64,000 nt of DNA from Antedon mediterranea. Its lineage: Eukaryota > Echinodermata > Crinoidea > Comatulida > Antedonidae. Below are positions 35,201 through 56,200 of this stretch, piece after piece. Made by a program: the position numbers and the translations under genes. Within the stretch, counting starts at the first letter, position 1. Every line of letters begins with the position of its first letter. The DNA lies in assembly GCF_964355755.1 (NCBI RefSeq), contig NC_092674.1, positions 13,211,001 to 13,275,000 of the forward strand, read 5' to 3'. Under the pieces are notes generated by a model, which saw only the letters and a program-made list of their open reading frames with translations, did no database searches and was not told where the DNA came from.

Positions 35201-38200
35201 CGCTCGCGTACCATCTAGGTCGTGCCCACAGATGGTTCTCGAATACATAATAATTTCAGCGTTAAAAAACTGGCGATTTCAAATGTACGTACCGCAGGAC
35301 AATAATACATGTCGTTTACAGGAACGAATAAATAGACACTGTGATTTATGTACTCAACTAAAATTAGCACCCTGGGAATTACTTCCGAAAAAGAAACTTG
35401 TCACAAAATGAGACCAATTGTTTAAGTCAAATTTAAACAAACTTAATTTGTGTTTTGTATGTAACATTCGGGTTGAGGGATGGGGAAGAAGATGGGTGCA
35501 AAGAGGAACAATTTTTAAATATATTCTTTATCCATTTAGTAACAAAATATTAATGGAACTTATTCAACCTTATGTTCCTAAGCGGTCTCTGAGATCTAGA
35601 TCTGAGTCTCTTCTTGCCCATATATTTCATCCTTCCACTAAGTTTTATGGAAATCGTTCATTTTCTTCGGCATTCGTTTCTCTATGGAATGCGTTGCCTA
35701 TTGAAATCCGTCAGGCTACTTCCACTAGTGTCTTCAAATCTCTCCTCAAAACCCACCTTTTTAATTTGTAATTTTCTAAATGTTTCTGTCTTTGTAAAGC
35801 GCATTGAGGCTTTCAGCATAATGCGCTATATCAAGTACCAGTTATTATTATTATTATTGTTTTCATGTTTTACAAATAATATACCACTAAACACAGTAGT
35901 AAAACATTGCGATGTAATACTTTGTTGAAACTATCACCGTCCTAGTGGATTGAAATAGTACAGTACATGTAACGATACATCACTACGACGTGTATATGTT
36001 TATGTAATGTAAAACAATTTGTGAAAACCACCTCTATTCGGGGAAAATCATAAATTCGATTTAATCGTCAATAAATATTAAATTATCCAACTCAACTTAA
36101 TTAGTAGGCCTAATGGTTTTCAATTCTTTCTTAGAGCCAATTCATACTTAAGTTGGTTCCTACTGGGGTTCCTACCCTACCCACCAACGTTGTTCTGCGT
36201 TTAGGCCATGTGATGTACCTTAGGCCTATCCTCTACTGGTTTTACAACGCTACTCATGCCACTGAGGGAAGGGTGATGATGTGGGTGGTTTAACTGCAAT
36301 AATAACGATTTGTACATACAATATATGGCGAGTGAAAACGCTAGCTCATTATCCGTTTAAAAAAAAATTATATCCAACCTCTGCAGCACAGATTGAAAAA
36401 AAAAATGGATCGAATTTCTGTTATGAGTATACAGGACTTGCCTTTACGACACCTGAGGGAATAGACACTTGTGGAACACAGATTGGAATGTTCCATTCAT
36501 CGCAAATCAATACATTTGTATAAACGTATATTAAATCTATCAAAATAGTATTTTTTAAAGAAAATCGGCCTGTCTTCAACATTATGATGCTGTACTCGAG
36601 CTGTTCAACCGGTTTTCAGCCATTAAAAACAATTATCGTAAGAGGAGATAGGAAAATGCGAAGCATCCTCGTATTATCGTCTGCGGGTATTTTTCAAGAT
36701 GGACATCCATTAGACAGTGTATACCACGCTCTAAAAACACCCCTATTTGGGGCAAATCGTTGAACCTAAATTCGTTTTAATCGTCAATAACTAATTATCG
36801 AACTCAATTTAATTAGTAAACAGGGTTACATCAGGTGGTTAAAATCAGTACCGAAAGTACGAACCAACTTTACATACCATCGAGTGAAAATTCTAGAAAT
36901 AACGCGCGATTTACCGAATTTTGCCCTTACGTAAATTTATATATAGATAATATATCATGCTACCTTTAACAGGAACTTTCGCTCATTCTTCTTAGTTACG
37001 AATTTGTCAAGAGACAAGATCACGTGATGAAATTGGTCTAAGTAGAGTTCGGCCAAATCATGCGTTAATGCTGGATCATCTCCGGTTTCCTTCTGATATT
37101 TGTTAATGAACTCAATAACTAAATATGGAAACACTACGTCAGGCAGATATCCACAAAGGTCGTAATAGATACTGATAGAGTGGTTGTCATCAGGTAGAGA
37201 TCTCGATTCACTGAATGGAGTATCAAAAGCAAGTCGCAGTGGCACAAAAAACGATTGCTTGACACCTTCTGGTTCCTGAAATATTAATTGAAAATTTTAA
37301 AGATCTATTGTCCCTTTGACTAATTAAAAAAAAATGTTTTTAATATTTCGAAAAAAGTGGGTCATTTTGAAGTATCATAATAGTTATTAACTTTCACCAA
37401 AAACTAGTCGGAAAAACATAATTTAACCGAAATACAGACTTTTTTTTTGTTTAAAAAATAACTTTGACTTCCAGTCAAAGTTTTCGATCAAAACATATCT
37501 CATAATGCAACGCGCTTGTTTGGCTACTCTGTATGCATAATAAAAAAACTTCTTCGCGATCTGTGTGAAAACACCTTCTCAACCGCAATGAGTTGTAAAC
37601 AATCCTAATTAGCATCATGCATAATGTATACTCATGGTTTGGAATCTTTGTTTACTTTCGCTCGTGACAATTTTCCAGACGAAATGTAATCAAATTAATT
37701 TACCTGTTAATTACATAACATTGTTGTTTTTTGCTCAAATTTTCGACTTAAAGTGAATAACTTTAATATTACTTTAATATGGCCAATTTAAATTTAGAAT
37801 ATTTTTTTTCCATTTTTTTGTGTTTCAATGGACAATACATCTTTAAATAAAATACAAGACGCCATTTAATTGAAATTGTACACACAATAATAAATGTACT
37901 ATGAGTATATGTAGTGCACTAAACCAGTAATTTTCTTATTTTGATCGAATCAGCTCGCAACACACACATAAACCAGGAAGCATTATCAACGGGGTTATAT
38001 TATAGGCCTAATATCAATATACAAATGTTTGGTATGATCGCTTCGCTCGCGTACCATCTAGGTCGTGCCCGCAGATGGTTCTCGAATGTCAGCGTAAAAA
38101 ACTGGTATTTTTCAAGATGGACATCCATTAGACTGTGTGTACCAAGGTCGGAGCAAATAGTTGAAGCTAAATTCGGTTTAATTGTAAATAACTAATTATT

Positions 38201-44200: not shown

Positions 44201-47200
44201 TAGCCCAAATAGATGAACATACAATGGTTAGCACAAAAAAAAACATCTTTTCTTCCGGCATCTCCATTTAAAATGTAAAACTTGACACGTAAACCTAAGC
44301 CTAAGCCTAAACAACGTTTAGGCTTACCATTGTTAAATAATTATTATTAATAAGAGTCCAAAGGAATTTATTCACTCACCTTTGATGACCTAATATATCT
44401 ATGTGATGAAATAAATAGTCTACTAGGTTATTAAGTAAAAGCAAAGATTAAACCTTGTGTACAAAATATAATAAAATAATTTACCACTGTTGGAAGTCGT
44501 TGTTTTAGTAACGGTCTAAAAGAAATAAATTACAATTATTAATAAGCAGGTTAATGTGAATAGTATTATTATTTTACCTAATTTATATATATTGTGCATT
44601 GTTTCTAAAATCATGTGACTACGTCATAAAACTAGATTACTTTAATCTTAAATAGAATCAGGTCTAACTTTATTATGTATGCGCATACAATATAACGTCG
44701 TTTTATATAATATGTAAAGAGTGTGTATTTAACTAAACATTGTACAATATTAATGTGATCATCTTCTTACACTGTTATGATTCAATAATCATTATACATT
44801 ATTTTGTAAGGTTGTGAATATTATATAAATATAGAGCTAAAAAAGGGAAAACATATTCAGACAATGTTAAATTGAAGCAAAACGGTTTAAAATATATTTA
44901 CCTTTTGAGAGGAAACTTTTCGTATCATACCACGTACTTTTCTCGCGAACCAAAATGTTTCTTTAGACTTCGGATGCACCACCTCCTCTTGATGTGGCTC
45001 GTTCATTGTTGTTTTGATCTATGTGGTGCAGTTGAAAAAGAATATTGTATTTTATTAAGTTTGTATTATTCTTTTATTACTATGCGTAACTAATGAATTG
45101 AAAAATCAGTGGCTATCAAAGATGATCAATTTCATCCGGCCTCTAGTATGTTCCAGTTGATGCGGAGCGGTCGGCGATTTCGTTCTATTAAGGCCAATAA
45201 GGCACCATTTAAAAATAGTTCCTTTCCAGGAGCTATTAGAGCATTAAACATCATGTAGACACTTTTTGTAATGTTTTTGTTTTGAGTTCGTGTTGTGTCC
45301 GTTGGATATTGTGCTCCGCCAACAGAGCAAACAGATTTTCTATGTTTTTTTCTTAAAACAAATGACAATAAATGATACTTGACTTGACTTAAACTTAATG
45401 CCATAACATAACCTATAGTCCAATGTATAACATGCTTAACACATGTACTAGTTTTATAATATTGTCTTTATCCGGTATGTGTTTGATATGATTGCATTAC
45501 ATTGCTCAGTGCTTCAATAGAAAGTAAATTCAATTTTTTAAGACCGTATTATCAATTTAAAGATGTATTGTCCCTTTGACTAATTCCAAAAAAATAAAAA
45601 ATAACAGATTTCGAAAAAAAATGGGTCAATTTGAAGTATCATAATAGTAATTTAACTTTCAATAAAAATTAGTCGAAAAAAAAATCATTCAACTGAATTA
45701 CAAACGGTTTTTTGTTAAAAAAAAAACTGTGACTTCCAGTCAAAGTTTTCGATCAAAACATATCCCATAATGCAACGCGCTTGCTAATGAATTATGCATA
45801 CAACTCCTTTTTTGGCTTGTTTATTTCTGTACGTACCGCAAGAGAACACACGTGTGAGTTGATTATCATCGTTCATCGCGAGAGAGACGAACCCGTGGTA
45901 AAGGATGGGTAAACGAGGCCCTTATTCTGGATTGAGATCATCGGAAAAGAAAAGGCGCAAACTTACACGTAATGTAGCGTCAAATGCTCGCAGAATTTTG
46001 CTAAACTTCGATACATTTCAGAGATGGTCCGTAGTAAAAGAAGCAAATAATTTAGCAAGTAATTCTGATGTTGCAAATTTTTTGCTTGACAGTAGGTAAC
46101 TTCTCTCTTTAGAAATAGTACAGTGTCCATCGGCTCTAGGGATTAGTTAGGGCCTTTTATTTAGTAAAATAGGCAATACTAGTAAGTAATGATAATTATT
46201 ATTATTGGTACTATAGTTCCACAGAGTTATAGATAGCCTAATAATTTTGAATTTAGTATAATACTAATAATAATAAATAGGTTAGGTTAGACCTCCAGGC
46301 TAGGCCTAGCTAGCCTATCTATACTAACTACTATAATAGCCTATACTACTACTACTACTACTACTACTAGGCCTGCCTACCTTTGCAATTAGATGAATCG
46401 TTCGAAAACAGGCGGATTGATAGGCCTAGGTAGATAGAGTAATACAACACACCTTTCGTAGTACAGCAGGTATTTTGAGACAGAAAGTATACTTTTAGTG
46501 TTAGTGTTATATATAATCTAGCATAGAATAGCTAGCCGCTAGGCCTATGCCTAATTAAAATCATAGATCCGGTTACCTAGCTGAACCAGGGAGTTGTTAT
46601 AACAACTCCCTGGCTGAACATACACACAGCACAGGTCCTACCATTTTTTTTAAATAAAAAAATTGGCCACCCATGACGAAAAGGTTTACCTCCTAACCAT
46701 TTGACTTGGAATTTTAAGTAGATAATTGATTACAATACCATCTGTTTGGTAGTGAGGGCCTTCACAAACAGGGCTGGTAAAATAATTATTTTCCTAGCTA
46801 GAGTGGGAATTAACTTTGGTACCTCCTCTGTTGTTACATTACTAGGGCTAGCCAGTGTCAATTTTAGTACAGTATTAATTTGATGATTTGGTATATTAAT
46901 TTTTTTTTTAATTTAAATTGTAAAATTGTTTTCCCTTATTCTATACCTCTTCACACTGTGCTTTATTGTTTTACGTTTAGTCATGCAGAAAGACATAGCA
47001 CAGCTTCTGGGCCGACCAGGACAACAGTTTCTACTCACCTTCCTACAACATCGACGCCTATAGAAGGTGCTTATTTAAGAACTACACTATCTGGTGGTTC
47101 AGATACAAGGTATGAAAATTTAGATATAATACAAATTTTGTTATGAAATATATTACTAATAATATTAATACCGTACTTAAATTAGATCACATGGGATTCA

Positions 47201-50200
47201 CATAGTGAACGGTTGCTTTCTACACTCACGATTACATGGCTTCAACACTCACTACTAACTGACTTCTCAATAGGAACTCTACAAATATAACTAAAGAATA
47301 TAGAAATTGTCATCGATCATAAATTGTTCTTTAGAATTTCTTCAATATCTGGAATTGATAGATTTTCCAAGTGCTTCTGAAGATGGAAGGTAAGTTTAAA
47401 CTAAAATTGCAGCGCTTTAACTTTTCTGTTTCACTTAATTCCAATGGAATGAACACAGCAAAATCCTTGTCTGTGGCTTGATAATACCCTGCACTCTTTA
47501 TACACTATGCCAATCTGATTACTGTTATTGAGAAATAAAATGGCATTAAAACTGTTATTTTTTTAGTATAAGCAACATTAAAGAAGAGGACAGACTCAGG
47601 CTCTGCTGAAATATTAAAGTAAATGAATTCTGTATACTTTTCATTTTATATGTTACAATGTATTAATTTTAATTACATAGTTTAAAATCCTTTCCCCCTC
47701 GATTGCTAGTGTTTCTAATCACACAATTAAGAGGTTGACATCATTGCACAAGTATTACTATTATTCTTTCAGTATGACCATTGACATTAACTTGTCAAGT
47801 GAATCTGAGTCAGAGAGCACTTGTGATGAAGATGAAGATTATGATTTATATGAACCATCATTTGACATAAGCCTTTGGTAAGTCATCATCTATTCCTTTA
47901 ACCCAAACTTTATTGTGATGCAGTAAAGCATCATTTAAAAAAAAATTAATGTTTGAAATTAAGTCATACATACATTTTTCAGTCCCAACAATGCACTTAA
48001 CCTCAGAGAAACCTCATTCGTTGAAGAGGAATTTGAAATTGAGGCAGAAAATGATGATCCATCCAGTCAGATTGAGGAGGACATTGAAGGTGTGGAAGTT
48101 GAAAGCCCTTATGTTAAACACATTGATATTATGGAAGAGTCTGACTTTCTTATAAAAGATGAAACCTGCATAGTGTACTTAAACTGTTTGAAAACCTTGG
48201 CAGAAATCAAAATCAACAAATCTTGTACTAGAAAATCCTGTAGTAGTCCTGTTGATCTGCATTCAAAGTTTGTTGGTTCTGCTGTGTATTTCAAATGGGT
48301 AAAAAGTCTTACTTTCAATTTTTGTAAACATTTTATCTTAATTTAATAATTCATAATTCTAATTAATTCCTGAAACCAATTTATGAACAAGTCTATGGTA
48401 CCATCAAACAATGATGGTTGCTATGTAATGTGTTTCAGCTTGTCAAATGACTTATTTTATGAAATTGGTTTAATGGTTTATTTAATAAATATATTATTGT
48501 GATCTACTTAGATTTGTACAAATGGCCACCTGAACAACAAATGGTGTTCTCTACCAATTCTAAAGAACAAATTGCATGGAGGGGATTTGTTAATGTCTAC
48601 GGCACTTTTAGCTTCTGGAAACAACTATGCAAAGATTGCTCTTCTGGCCAAGTTTTTAAAACTTCATATTCTGAATGTCAACACATACTATAGAATTCAG
48701 AGAAAATATCTTGTGCCTGCAGTTACTGAATTATGGGAAGATACCCAGAAAGAAATCTTGACAGCACATGAAGGAAAAGATGTTGTACTGCTTGGTAGGT
48801 ATTATAATATAAAATGGAGGTGTATGGAAAAAAAATAAATGTGACTAAACTAAAGTTCATAGGTCAAGGCTTCATTGTGCAAATGAAAATGCAGGATGGA
48901 ACTAAATTACTGAAAAACGCTAATATTGTTTTTGACGAGTTATATTCTATTAAAAACTGTTTTTAGTGGTGGTCAGGTACAAATCTACTTATATACAGTA
49001 CAAGAACGTTATTACTGTAAATATTTTTTTTTCATAGGAGATGGAAGGATGGACAGTCCAGGACACTCTGCCCAATTTTGCACGTATACTATGATGGACA
49101 ATGCTGACAAAAGTATTTTGTCAATTATGACAATTGATAAGCGGGAGACAGAGGGCAAAAGTACTTTAATGGAAAAAGTAGGATTTCAGAAGAGTGTTTC
49201 ATTTCTCAAACAACAAAATGTGAATGTCGTTGAATGTGTAACCGATGCACACTTACAGATTGGCGCATTGATGAGTATGTTTTATTTTTACATCGTAATT
49301 CTAGATGATCACCAAAATCTAAAATAAATTTTTGATTAACATGTTTTTATTCTGTAAAATATGGTTTATTTTTATATTTGTTTTTCTTCATCACTCTAGA
49401 AAACGAATATCCAGACATCAAACACTCACACAATATTTGGCATGCTGCCAAGAATCTAGCAAAAGCATTGGTTGCAGTAAGTTTTTTGGTAATTTGCAGA
49501 CAATGTAAATTATTTTATTATAGTTATACCCTAATTTCATAATATGTAAAATAGGATATTTATTATACAAATTAATACTAATCTTTTGTTTCATTGGTAT
49601 TTTTTATACAATTTAACAGGCTGGTCAGAAGAAAGACTGCAAAGTCTTATTAAGTTGGAGCAAAGATATTGTAAACCATTTCTGGCATACCTGCGAGACT
49701 TCAAAGACATATGATGAATTTCTTGTATGTACATGTTTTAATTTAATGATGCACATACTGTATATACACTCTCAAAGACAAGTTATATTGTTCTTGAACA
49801 TAAACTTTAGCACAAGATCTTCTTTATTGTGGAATTAATTTCTTTATTCTGGTTCTACTATGTTCATCAATTTTAAAGGCTCACAGCTATCTTCAGATAC
49901 TGACATTGTCATATTATCTCTGTGTGTATCTGATATTGTATCCATTTTTTCCATATTTAAAAAAAGAAATCTGTATTTGAGATATGTATTTTACTGATTT
50001 TCTTGTTCAATGATAGGGAATATGGTGTGGAATTCTTCACCATGTGGTGGATGAACACCAGTGGGCTTTATCATATAGTGATGTTGGTACAGCCTCCTGT
50101 AGTCATGGACCTCTTGAGAGCGAGAGACAAAAGGGATGGATGACAAAGGGTCATCCAGCGCACAATGCACTACGAAAGATCGTCCTAAACAACAGATTTC

Positions 50201-53200
50201 TAAAGAAAATCCCATATTGGCTTAATTTTCGGTGAGCAAATTGATTAAAAATAGAGGAATGGTTTATACTGTACAAGCATTTCTGTGCATATTCTGTAGT
50301 ATTGATTAAAGCTAAAAAAAAAAAAAACAGGTGCTCTAAACAATAAATATACATTTCAACAGAACAATATACACATAATAAACACATTTATTAGTATTAC
50401 TTTAAAATTTGCATATTTTATTGCATTTGACAACAGTATTGACTTAGCTATTTATATATACATATTGTGTATTTTTAGTGGAACTGCTGAACTGGAAAAT
50501 TTCCACCAATGTATTTTGATGTATGCGGCCAAAAGATTCCATTACAGTCCACCAATGTACAAAGTAAGGAATCTTCTGGCAGCATTGGATTACACAGCAA
50601 ACCATCAACGAGAGATCAAGAAAAATAAAGATGGGACCACAAGGTACATTCCATAGTTTTTTACAGTTGAATATTAATTGGCTATATTAATTACTAAATA
50701 CCGTACTACATATGAAACCGACAAGTCTATTCTTAAATCAATTGTATCTTTATGCCATGTACAACGGAGTTACCATGGAACTAGCTACAGGTATATGGGC
50801 AAAAGAAATTTGACAATTAATTTTAAAATCGGTTTTCCCGAATTGCAATCTAAGCAAAATATTCCAAATTGCTGTCAAAAATTATAAACAATTATTTTCT
50901 GTTGTGTAGATATCAACGCTTATTTAACAAAAAAAGTAAGAGGTGGACAGTGGTGCCTGTTAAAGAAGAAAAGGATTACAGCTACATCCAGAAATTGGTG
51001 GAAATGGTTGTATACAGAAGACTACTTGATGAAACTAGCCTGAAAACAGTAACAGGCTTAGGAGAAGATGACCCAAGAAGGCTCAGCAGAAACATTGCTT
51101 CAGTACCAGCACCACCAACTCATCAACTAGTTGAAGAGAAATTGTCAAGATTTAAAAAAAAACTATGATGTATCAGTTACCTTTCTATTCGTGCAAACAG
51201 TACTGGGCAATTCCTGTTAAGTTTTTAATGTATTCAGTTAAAAATGATTTATTTTTTTCTGTTATGGTACTAAAATGAGCAATTAAATTTGGAAATCTAT
51301 TTGTGGGAATTGTACAAAGGGACAATACATCTTTAAATTCGTCCTGGTTGAAAACCAACATACTGGCCAAATGCATCGGGGTATTTGTCCCGTACTGCCC
51401 ATACACAACTGGGTATTATATTCTGATGCCAATACCGAGACGACCATGTGGTCACAAAACATACTGCCGGTAGGCTGTATGTTTATGACCCCTACTCCAT
51501 TTGTTGTCCATAGGCGCTGCTAATATATCTTGATGATAGGCTCGTGCCAATTGCAACATTGCTTCATTAAGAATGAGCAACTAAAAGTCCTAAAATGAAA
51601 AAAAAAAATGTTTATTTAGTATTTTTTGTTTAGTTTATGTTATGCACTATTTTTCAAAATAATATAAGCTGGTAACAGGTCTGTATTTTAACAACAGTAC
51701 TTATTAAAAATAAAGCAGAACTTTTAAAATTAGTTTGACAAAAAGACAATTCTTTTTGTGTTTTTTTAGATACACTATATCGACACTTTATCATTGTAAT
51801 GCATTTTATCAATAAGTATGTTAAATTAATATACTGTAATGTTTCACACGTGCAATTACCTGAAATTTGTTGTGTTTTCGTGTGTATAGCCACAGAACAC
51901 TCTTTCATTTTCAGTTTGAATTTGCCAGCAGTTGTTGCAAACACACCAACTTGGTGTAGTTGCTGGTGGTACAGGATGATGACCTCCCTCTGGTACTTTT
52001 TCTCTGCTGCTTCCTTTAGTTAGTAGGTCTTTAGCCTCTACCTCTGTCAAGGCATTAATTTTAACCTAAAATAAAATTGTTATAAATTGTTTACTGCTAA
52101 ATATGGAAATATGAAATATTTATCGTGAGGAATCTTTGCCATTTGCCACCAGAATTTCAAATGTTGAACCAGGTTTCACAATATCTTTTTACCTTTATGT
52201 ATTACTGGTCCATTGACAAGTAACATTAACAGTGAAGCTAATTAGTTGCGAATATTTTTAAAAGTATTGTCACAAAAATAGTAAATAACCACAGATCCTA
52301 TAGATTTTTATATATATTGTATATGGAAATTATAGTATTAATTATTAGTAACATATTTCTAATTAAAAAATCCCATGGATATGATTAGTGTATTTCTTTT
52401 TATACACAGTACAATTCAATAGTTAGGCTACTACTACTAGTAATAGGCTAGTCTTTAAAAATAGAACTGGCATCTATCGTCAAAATGACGAATCAGTTGC
52501 CAGTACAGTGGGCTAACTTGGGCACATTTTACTAGCCTATACTCGATAATTAGTAATGATGAACCGATCGGACCTGGCAAAAATTAATACGGGTAGCCAA
52601 CGAATACTTAAAAATGAGTCTAAAGCATAGGCCTAATATTAATAAAAAGACAACGTGAACCTGAAAGGTAGACCTACCTACCTAGAGTAGCCTAGGCCTA
52701 GGCTAGAGTAGAAGGCTAGGCCTATCCTAGGTAGGTACTGTGCAAGTTACAGCTTAGAGCTAGGCTTAGTAGTAGTAGCCTAGAGTATCTAAACTAGGCC
52801 ACAAGTATACATTTTATTTGAGAGAAACTAAGTAAAAAATAGTAATATATTTACCGATAAATCCATGGGTTTCTTGAATACATTAAAACAAAATTCGTTC
52901 CGCAACTAGGCCTAGGCATACACTGCCGGCCGCGCCGCAGCGTTGCCAGCGATAAAATTTAAATTATGCCGTATCCTGTCTCAAATAATGCCAGATTGGG
53001 AAAAATAATGCCAGATCCCCAAAATGTGGCCCTAAACAGCGCCACCAACGGTTGTATGTCTAATAAACGTTTGTAAAACCCCAACTGACACAAAATAGGG
53101 CCTAAAATTGTATCCCCATGTCGTACAAAATTTATATTTTTAGTTTTGTGAGTAATAACTAATAATTCTAAATATCTGGGGTGCGAAAATGTTAATTGCA

Positions 53201-56200
53201 AATGCAAATGACACCAACCCCCACCCCGCCCCCACCCTAAAAAAAAAAAAAAAACAGCCATGGAAATTTATAATTTTTGAGCTGAAATATGAGAGCTGCT
53301 CGATGGCCGGGATCTTTGCACTTAATTTAAAAAATAAAAGGATCTTATAGCCACCATAATTAGAAAATGGAAATTATAATTTAAAATAGGAAATAAAAAA
53401 AATTATTTTGAGTGTCTCCAGGACCTCAGCCCCACCACCATGGTTGATAAGAAAATTTGGAAAAATACAGCTACTCGATGGCCGGAAATGGCACTTAATT
53501 TAAAATATGAAATTAAAATATATAGACGTGTCTCCATGATCTTAGCCCACCATAGTTCGAAAATGGCAATTATAATTTAAAATAGGAAATCAAAATATAT
53601 ATTAATTGTGTCTCCAGGACCTCATGGTTGGGGCTGAGGTAAGAAAATTTGAAAAAATAGAGCTGCTCAATGGCCGGAAATGGCACTTAATTTCAAATAT
53701 AAAATAAATTTATTAGTACCTCCAGGATCTTAGCCCATGATAGTTTTGAAAGTGCCAATTATAATTTAAAATAGGAAATAAAAATATATATTAAGTGTTT
53801 CCAGGACCTCAGCCCCACCATGGTTGGGGCTGAGGTAAAACAAATTGGAATAATAGAGCTGCTAGATGGCCGGAAATTGCACTTAATTTTAAATAAAAAT
53901 GTACAAGAGTCCCTAAGACCTCGCCCCATCATGGTCACTGAGAGGTGAAGAACATTTGGAAATATAGGGTTGCTACGACGATGCAATGGAACATAATTTG
54001 AAATATGGAAAACAAAATCTCTAGAAGAAATTCTTTTTAAAATTAGAGCTTCTAGTTACCGGAAATTGCCATTTTAAGGGTTGGGGTAGGGGTGTGGCCG
54101 CTTATAATTATGAACTGAAAAAACAAAACCCCTTTCATAATGTGTTTTCGTTCAATTGTCTCTATATCTGGGGATCCAATAACCTGCATGGTCTCTGAAA
54201 TAGAGCAACATAATTGGCCAATAGGTAGCCTCTTCGGATTTGTTGTGCTGCCTATATCGCACACACGGTAGTTTTCGAGCAGCCTTCCTATCCGAAGAGC
54301 CGATTAAGTCCGAAACGAAAGGATGGAAGAACTACTATTGTACGGAAAACCCGAACAGATCTGTTTTGTACGATATGATATTGCGTAAGGTGATATGTAT
54401 TAACAAAATATTTTATTTTTGTTCTGTGGTATATTATTTTTTTGGTTGTTCAAAAAACACAAAATTATGCCAGATTATGCTAAAAACGGCTAAATAATGC
54501 CGCGGCATTATGCCAGATGCCGTGGGCCTCCAAATAATTCCAAAAAGCATAATAATGCCAGAAATGGCAACTATGCCGCGCCGGCGGCGCGCGTTACGTA
54601 CAGTTTGGCTATACTGTATATGCATAATCATAAAACTTCCTCTCTCGATCGCGCGATATGTGTAAAAACATCTCCTCAACCACCGTGACAAGTTGTAAAC
54701 AATCTTAATTAGCATATCATGCATAATTCATACTCGTGGTTTGAAATCTTTGTTTACTTTCGCTCGGAATGATTTTCCAGACGAAATTTAATCAAACTAA
54801 TTTACCTGTTAATTACGTAAACTTGTTGTTTTTGGCTCGAATTTTTAACTTAAAGTGAATAACTTTAATATTACTTTGATATGGCCAATTTAAATTTAGA
54901 ATATTTTGACCTTCATTTTTTGTGTTCAAAGGGACAATACAACTTTAAAGAAAGGGTCATGTGAGGTGGGTTTACAGTACATTGATGTAGGCCAAAGTAT
55001 AATGTGATGCTTGTTTGATGGCTTGTAATTAATAAGTAAAAATATCATTATTTCTATTATATATTGTACGTACGTTTTCACACGAGGCGGGAGACGCCAG
55101 CTCTTCTACTTCAACATCTTCTTTACCTTCTATTCTTTTGTTGATATTTTCTTCAGCAAGTTTTCGATACAATGAGTTTGGGTTATCTATAAATCAGTAA
55201 ATGTATTGTCTATAATAGAGTGAAGAAGCCTTCGGTTTCTGTATTAGGCCTGAGCTGAATTGAACGATTTTTTAGCATTAAGGGCAAATGTTATAGTATA
55301 GCTCAATATGCTCAGTTTACAAGCTAACTATAAAGGAAAATGATTTCAAGAAGAGCATAATTGATTTAATAAATCTAAGCAGAACTTCGATGCACGTCAA
55401 AGTGGGCACCAGATTATTTACACATCAGAGCTATGTATTGAAATTATGGCTCTGCAACCCATTGAGTAATGTGATTGGTAACATAATTTTGTAAAATTAT
55501 TATCTGATTATTATCTGATGATTATTCTGACGGTTTGTCAATAAGAAGAACGGATACAAACAGACACATTCTTAGAAGTGTGGTCGATAAATAGTATACA
55601 ATTCCTGATTCAAAACGATATTGTTTTATCGACATATGATAAACACCATCGCAATTTCTGCGACAAGTACGTGCATTTATTAACTTGGTTATTCGTATAA
55701 AAACGTGTTAAGGGGACTTATGGTAAACGAAATTGCTTTAATATAGGACAGAATGGTATTATTTATTCAAGTAAATTGAATACTGTGAACAGTAAATATA
55801 TAATTCAGAAAAAATGAATTGATTTCCAATCCAATCTATTTCAATACAATACTTGTTCATTTTGTGATGAATGGTCTATTATGATGAATGAAACGATGGT
55901 GAAAACGTTGTTATTTATTTTTACCACTTTCGTCATTCTTGTCCCATTTGTTTAATTCTGCGTTTGTTTCTATAGTTTTAATAACAGCCACTCCGTCTGT
56001 TATTTCATGATTGACGTTAAATCTGAAATTTAATAATTTAAAAAAACTATATATACACAAAAACAATATTGAACCAAAATAATATGAATTAAACGCACAG
56101 AATAAAAAAAAACACATGCTTTCTTTTAGAGCTATGTTTGTGTTCCCTAATGATATAAGAAACGAGAAATTAATTTATTGATATCTTTAGATTCGTTTGT

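Follow-up and report, generated by a model that had tools for sequence, protein, structure and literature searches.

A Kolobok-type DNA transposon of Antedon mediterranea with a P2X7 ballast-domain gene convergent to its transposase

Within the window, a 64,000-nucleotide stretch of the Antedon mediterranea genome lying on C5, positions 45561-54944 are occupied by a TTAA-flanked DNA transposon of the Kolobok type, inside which lie a transposase gene and, convergent to it, a gene encoding a ballast domain. The features of the unit, together with a short deletion derivative (MITE) of the same family in the same window, are as follows.

37296..37852, plus strand: MITE of the focal family, left half 85% like L and right half 83% like R2, junction at 37518.
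45557..45560, no strand: left TTAA target-site duplication; the left match of other copies starts at the same boundary.
45561..45787, plus strand: left end (L), composed of the terminal inverted repeat (TIR) AGATGTATTGTCCCTTTGA and ~227 bp of subterminal sequence common to MITEs.
45906..51168, plus strand: multi-exon DDE transposase gene, exon ends approximate and placed from sequence rather than from transcripts.
Near 45906-46095, 47984-48300 and 48512-48795, plus strand: transposase exons, ends approximate.
Near 49039-49285, 49400-49480 and 49620-49725, plus strand: transposase exons, ends approximate.
Near 50018-50232, 50480-50645 and 50908-51168, plus strand: transposase exons, ends approximate.
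51315..51336, plus strand: internal third TIR copy (R1) with TTAA, conserved in aligned copies.
51333..51595, minus strand: last ballast (KolX) exon, read as a pseudogene, LNEAMLQLARAY...AYRQYVL(stop)PHGRLGIGIR(frameshift).
51862..52059, minus strand: preceding ballast exon with the putative zinc-ligand motif WCVCNNC, from a reading of the sequence.
52938..54575, no strand: later hAT-like insertion, not part of the unit, 1638 bp, with 8-bp duplication CCGCGCCG and ends CAGCGTTGCCA / TGGCAACTATG.
54599..54944, minus strand: right end (R2), ~346 bp in common with MITEs.
54945..54948, no strand: right TTAA target-site duplication; TTAA also comes first in the right flanks of the copies read.

At its edges the unit reads TTAA (45557-45560), AGATGTATTGTCCCTTTGA ... 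TCAAAGGGACAATACAACT, TTAA (54945-54948), with TIR arms of 24 nt that are 96% complementary and with termini AG...CT, i.e. 5'-RR and YY-3'. Genome-wide (354 Mb, at most one mismatch) the terminal sequence gave 1186 matches, and its reversed control gave none in the same 354 Mb. A speculative initial pattern, TTAACCCTTTA, was uninformative, control counts exceeding pattern counts. The coordinates of the TTAA-flanked TIR unit given by an earlier note, made from the letters of the window, were recovered exactly by repeat search; that description had the borders, the transposase and the ballast gene right and had missed R1, the lesions of the ballast gene and the later hAT-like insertion.

Kolobok elements transpose by DDE-mediated cut-and-paste at TTAA. 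The plus-strand exons encode a DDE transposase with the motifs GDGRMDSPGHSA / VTDAHLQI / AELENFHQC, so the multi-exon DDE-type gene described earlier is indeed present on that strand. Between the second D and the E lies a C/DxxH motif, which is DIWH or DIFH in three related elements treated below (L070, L073 and L075) and NIWH in the focal copy, the catalytic residues being placed by alignment only. With Pfam the focal transposase gave a match to MULE only, below threshold at 17 bits; its assignment to Kolobok is therefore drawn, in place of a curated model, from the motifs, the TTAA target, the AG/CT ends and the presence of THAP in sister families. Frog Kolobok transposases usually carry a THAP domain (PMC6004289), a pattern that L073 and L075 fit and the focal transposase appears not to, its N-terminus reading as non-THAP; in a Pfam search of the focal sequence tested, with its approximate exons, no THAP domain was matched.

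The spliced minus-strand exons match the profile PF20478 (P2RX7_C) with 63 bits and E 4.6e-17 (cut-off 23.5), and match solved P2X7 receptors (PDB 6u9v, 9e3q) over residues 462-592 with E 4.6e-9. The likeness to the P2X7 ballast proposed from reading is thereby borne out, and all the motifs quoted for it were found. The putative zinc-ligand cysteines are kept, as WCVCNNC in the focal copy, as WCVCHAC, MCC, NC and SCC in L069, and as WCQCGRC and LCC in L073. Two lesions interrupt the focal gene, one TGA (after AYRQYVL) and one frameshift, and both are the same in all seven aligned copies. An intron spanning the two was considered and rejected, the stretch being too short and the sister families reading through it; for these reasons the preferred reading is a pseudogene common to the whole family. 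Because the seven copies have both lesions in common, the focal KolX most likely died before the copies spread.

The TTAA target also suits a transposon of the piggyBac type, some of which carry KolX-like genes according to Kojima and Bao 2022 (PMC9587614), and one ballast match of the genome has a piggyBac transposase 4.3 kb away. However, the ends AG...CT agree with the 5'-RR and YY-3' termini by which that paper separates Kolobok from piggyBac, and the sole ballast match near a piggyBac gene sits in an element of its own with AGATCATGG ends. The piggyBac profile PF13843 found no match in the focal transposase by Pfam search, and its 37 matches in the genome include none at the focal copies. 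A piggyBac identity is practically excluded by these results, and the Kolobok reading is followed below.

The stretch that joins the transposase to the ballast gene across R1 recurs with 99-100% identity over 881 bp at seven sites, namely the window on C5, C1:12.14M, C2:20.03M, C2:21.21M, C3:23.90M, C4:14.44M and C9:13.32M, and an eighth copy, on C8, is rearranged and carries both genes. No strong DNA match to the transposase body lies outside these eight places; the other matches are weaker and belong to diverged relatives. The left end of other copies begins where the focal L begins. In five intact copies the right end reads ...CAACT, followed by TTAA and then by differing flanks; in the C8 copy it reads ...CATCT, followed by TTAA. 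The earlier note had suggested looking for the ballast gene in independent, TTAA-flanked insertions; both genes are present in all seven full copies and in the rearranged eighth, and each of the right flanks read, which differ from one another, opens with TTAA. Full-length members without the ballast gene, which that note had set against its own proposal, were not encountered in the focal family within this genome: none of the 16 candidates, all scored, had the transposase alone. A DNA search of the same genome turned up no occurrence of the focal ballast gene outside the transposon; as far as one genome can show, this too speaks for the proposal of that note.

The genome is full of a 550-bp MITE derivative, several hundred short elements that consist of precisely the two outer ends, and in nearly all loci sampled the structure is L(1-227) joined to R2(1-346). 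Because MITEs join L to R2, and because the copies run through R1 to R2, L and R2 are taken as the ends that move; judged from sequence, the mobile ends are the outer ones, which enclose both genes. The later hAT-like insertion, which contains internal repeats of ~190 bp, is missing from five other copies compared across that point, and the focal element without it measures ~7.74 kb.

R1 lies between the two genes, just past the transposase gene, and is oriented like the right end; its TTAA contains the stop codon of the ballast gene. The presence of R1 invites another arrangement, one of two neighbours: L and R1 would bound a 5.8-kb element with the transposase alone, the adjoining ballast gene would be an unrelated gene of the host, and R2 would be a third end there by chance. 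The inverted repeat formed by L and R1 (40 nt, 88%) is longer than the L/R2 arms, and R1 ends in CT next to TTAA, as that arrangement would have it. Against this, all seven full copies are unbroken from the transposase via R1 into the ballast gene, the copies whose right end was read finish at R2, the MITEs consist of L and R2, and no copy limited to L-R1 was seen in the genome. A transposase-only L-R1 element was rejected on the full copies and the MITE structure, and two neighbouring units are extremely unlikely. R1 was likewise considered, and discarded, as the mark of a nested insertion: the homologous intergenic spacer of the sister family is of similar length and no R1-like TIR is present in it, and R1 therefore looks to have been acquired in place.

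Ballast genes of the genome were surveyed by profile search with PF20478, which returned 70 exon matches; many of them fall into sets that score identically, as repeats are expected to do. For at least 34 of these 70 a Kolobok transposase lies no more than 6 kb away, and in each of the 34 pairs the two are convergent; the figure is a minimum, since it comes from scoring 84 of the 208 candidate transposases. The 6-kb neighbourhoods of Kolobok transposases make up 0.18% of the genome, such that ~0.1 close ballast match is expected by chance; copies within one family are not independent events, and the pairing is seen in several families.

Three further Kolobok families that were read carry ballast genes without stops. 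The sister family, L069/L070, has transposase exons ~70-88% identical, TTAA and AGATGTATTGTCCCCC ends, and stop-free KolX exons; the L069 transposase has a stop in one exon. The second, L073 1430-6736 (C3:9457929-9463235), is a 5.3-kb, TTAA-flanked element with 30-nt TIRs, a transposase with a THAP domain (PF05485, 65 bits) and an unbroken KolX of 180 aa. Five genome copies of it were found, each with both TIRs, and since two aligned copies are 99.87% identical the family has probably been active recently. The third, L075 (C3:31398484-31404676), is a 6.2-kb element in which a transposase, THAP-like at its N-terminus by reading, and KolX lie inside AGATCATGG ends; L076 is a second copy, 98.8% identical over the part compared.

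These families bear on whether the ballast gene could be a host gene captured once, a passenger of the focal family alone. That the focal copy is a pseudogene is what would be expected of a useless passenger. Yet the same convergent pairing occurs, with KolX uninterrupted, in several distant Kolobok families whose transposases are ~30-35% identical, and Kol0 elements of other animals carry KolX as well, as stated by Kojima and Bao 2022 (PMC9587614). A single capture is thus very unlikely. With high confidence, the focal region is instead one copy of a two-gene transposon of the Kolobok superfamily, the accessory gene of which encodes KolX, a short ballast-domain protein with zinc-ligand cysteines.

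Two other loci from these searches are recorded here. At C8:3538937-3555370 there is a cluster of three ballast matches with stop codons and with no nearby match to a Kolobok transposase among the candidates scored. At C5:15231005-15245827 there are three tandem Kolobok transposase copies, 7 kb apart, with no nearby ballast match.

The L075 family has also given rise to a nonautonomous TTAA element of ~19 copies, mostly 3.1 kb, which has the terminal sequence of that family and keeps a ballast exon; no transposase match was found in the ~19 copies. It is exemplified by L071 3253-6370 (C1:7266652-7269769), with ~18 more places. In the copy compared, the ballast exon runs opposite to that of the L075 parent; it is open in most copies, and ~15 of the ~19 gave a PF20478 match. 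Between parent and derivative, KolX differs at 58.5 of 67.5 synonymous sites (saturated) with dN 0.20, and pN/pS across 13 derivative copies amounts to 0.75. Saturated synonymous change together with low amino-acid change between families indicates that KolX has been kept by selection in the transposon lineage, under long purifying selection as estimated from these sequences. The pN/pS of 0.75 among derivative copies suggests that little or no selection is visible on KolX after insertion, within one family. The derivative shows a route by which such genes can multiply without a transposase of their own. A further step, in which ballast genes spread on their own vehicle as ballast-only transposons that multiply while selection preserves the frame, as it might if KolX assisted its own element in cis, seems rather unlikely. 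If it were true, the scattered channel-free ballast genes would have a direct source in ballast-only transposons, which would also be the sort of raw material that a P2X gene captured.

For the two-gene transposon, the following course of events would account for the observations. The DDE transposase would cut and paste the unit L-R2 at TTAA, and KolX, as a presumed zinc-binding cofactor, would act with it in binding DNA or nucleotides and could be supplied in trans. Action in trans is suggested by the contrast between the focal family, which moved although its KolX was dead, and its relatives, in which unbroken copies exist. Insertions of the focal family with a dead KolX would then have used KolX made by relatives or have needed none, and it is possible that KolX is dispensable for transposition.

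P2X channels are a separate matter in this genome. Profile search with PF00864 found two P2X loci, at 4.20 and 6.70 Mb of C3, and whole-genome profile searches found no PF20478 match near either, so ballast and channel appear to be separate in A. mediterranea as far as sequence profiles can tell. The proposal of the earlier note that the ballast domain travels as an accessory of a DNA transposon holds in this genome, in the convergent pair of the focal copies and in the other Kolobok families. The proposal, and with it the idea of a source for the P2X7 tail, is not new. In Kojima and Bao 2022 (PMC9587614), the ballast fold is assigned to the KolX protein of Kol0 Kolobok elements, and P2X7 is derived from a P2X4-like gene that became fused to KolX. 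The focal and sister families are new members of that published KolX-bearing kind of Kolobok, not a new type of system, and the present results, drawn independently from the whole of one chromosome-scale assembly, confirm that Kolobok transposons carry the P2X7 ballast domain as an accessory gene. In Rump et al. 2020 (PMC7016195), ballast proteins that lack a channel are described from across the animals and taken for host genes linked ancestrally to two markers; transposons go unmentioned there, neither 'transpos' nor 'mobile' occurring in the text. The 'ancestral synteny' of that study may be linkage to transposon genes.

Among known systems, the Kol0 Kolobok elements with KolX (Kapitonov and Jurka; Kojima and Bao 2022, PMC9587614) are alike in TTAA target, 5'-RR ends, DDE transposase and a second gene, KolX, with the ballast fold. 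Compared with Kol0, the focal element differs in a dead KolX, an apparently non-THAP transposase N-terminus and an extra internal TIR; the convergent gene order is established in A. mediterranea and is not stated for Kol0 in the passages of PMC9587614 consulted. KolobokP, described in the same paper, likewise has its transposase on the direct strand and an accessory gene downstream on the complementary strand, but its His-Me nuclease and its 450/660-bp terminal direct repeats were not seen in the focal element, where a repeat search was made and the second gene is the ballast. Channel-free ballast or ZCD proteins and nanor (PMC7016195) share with the focal gene a ballast domain without a P2X channel and the conserved cysteines. 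In the P2X7 receptor (PDB 6u9v, 9e3q), the ballast is fused to an ATP-gated channel, whereas the focal ballast is a separate gene of a transposon.
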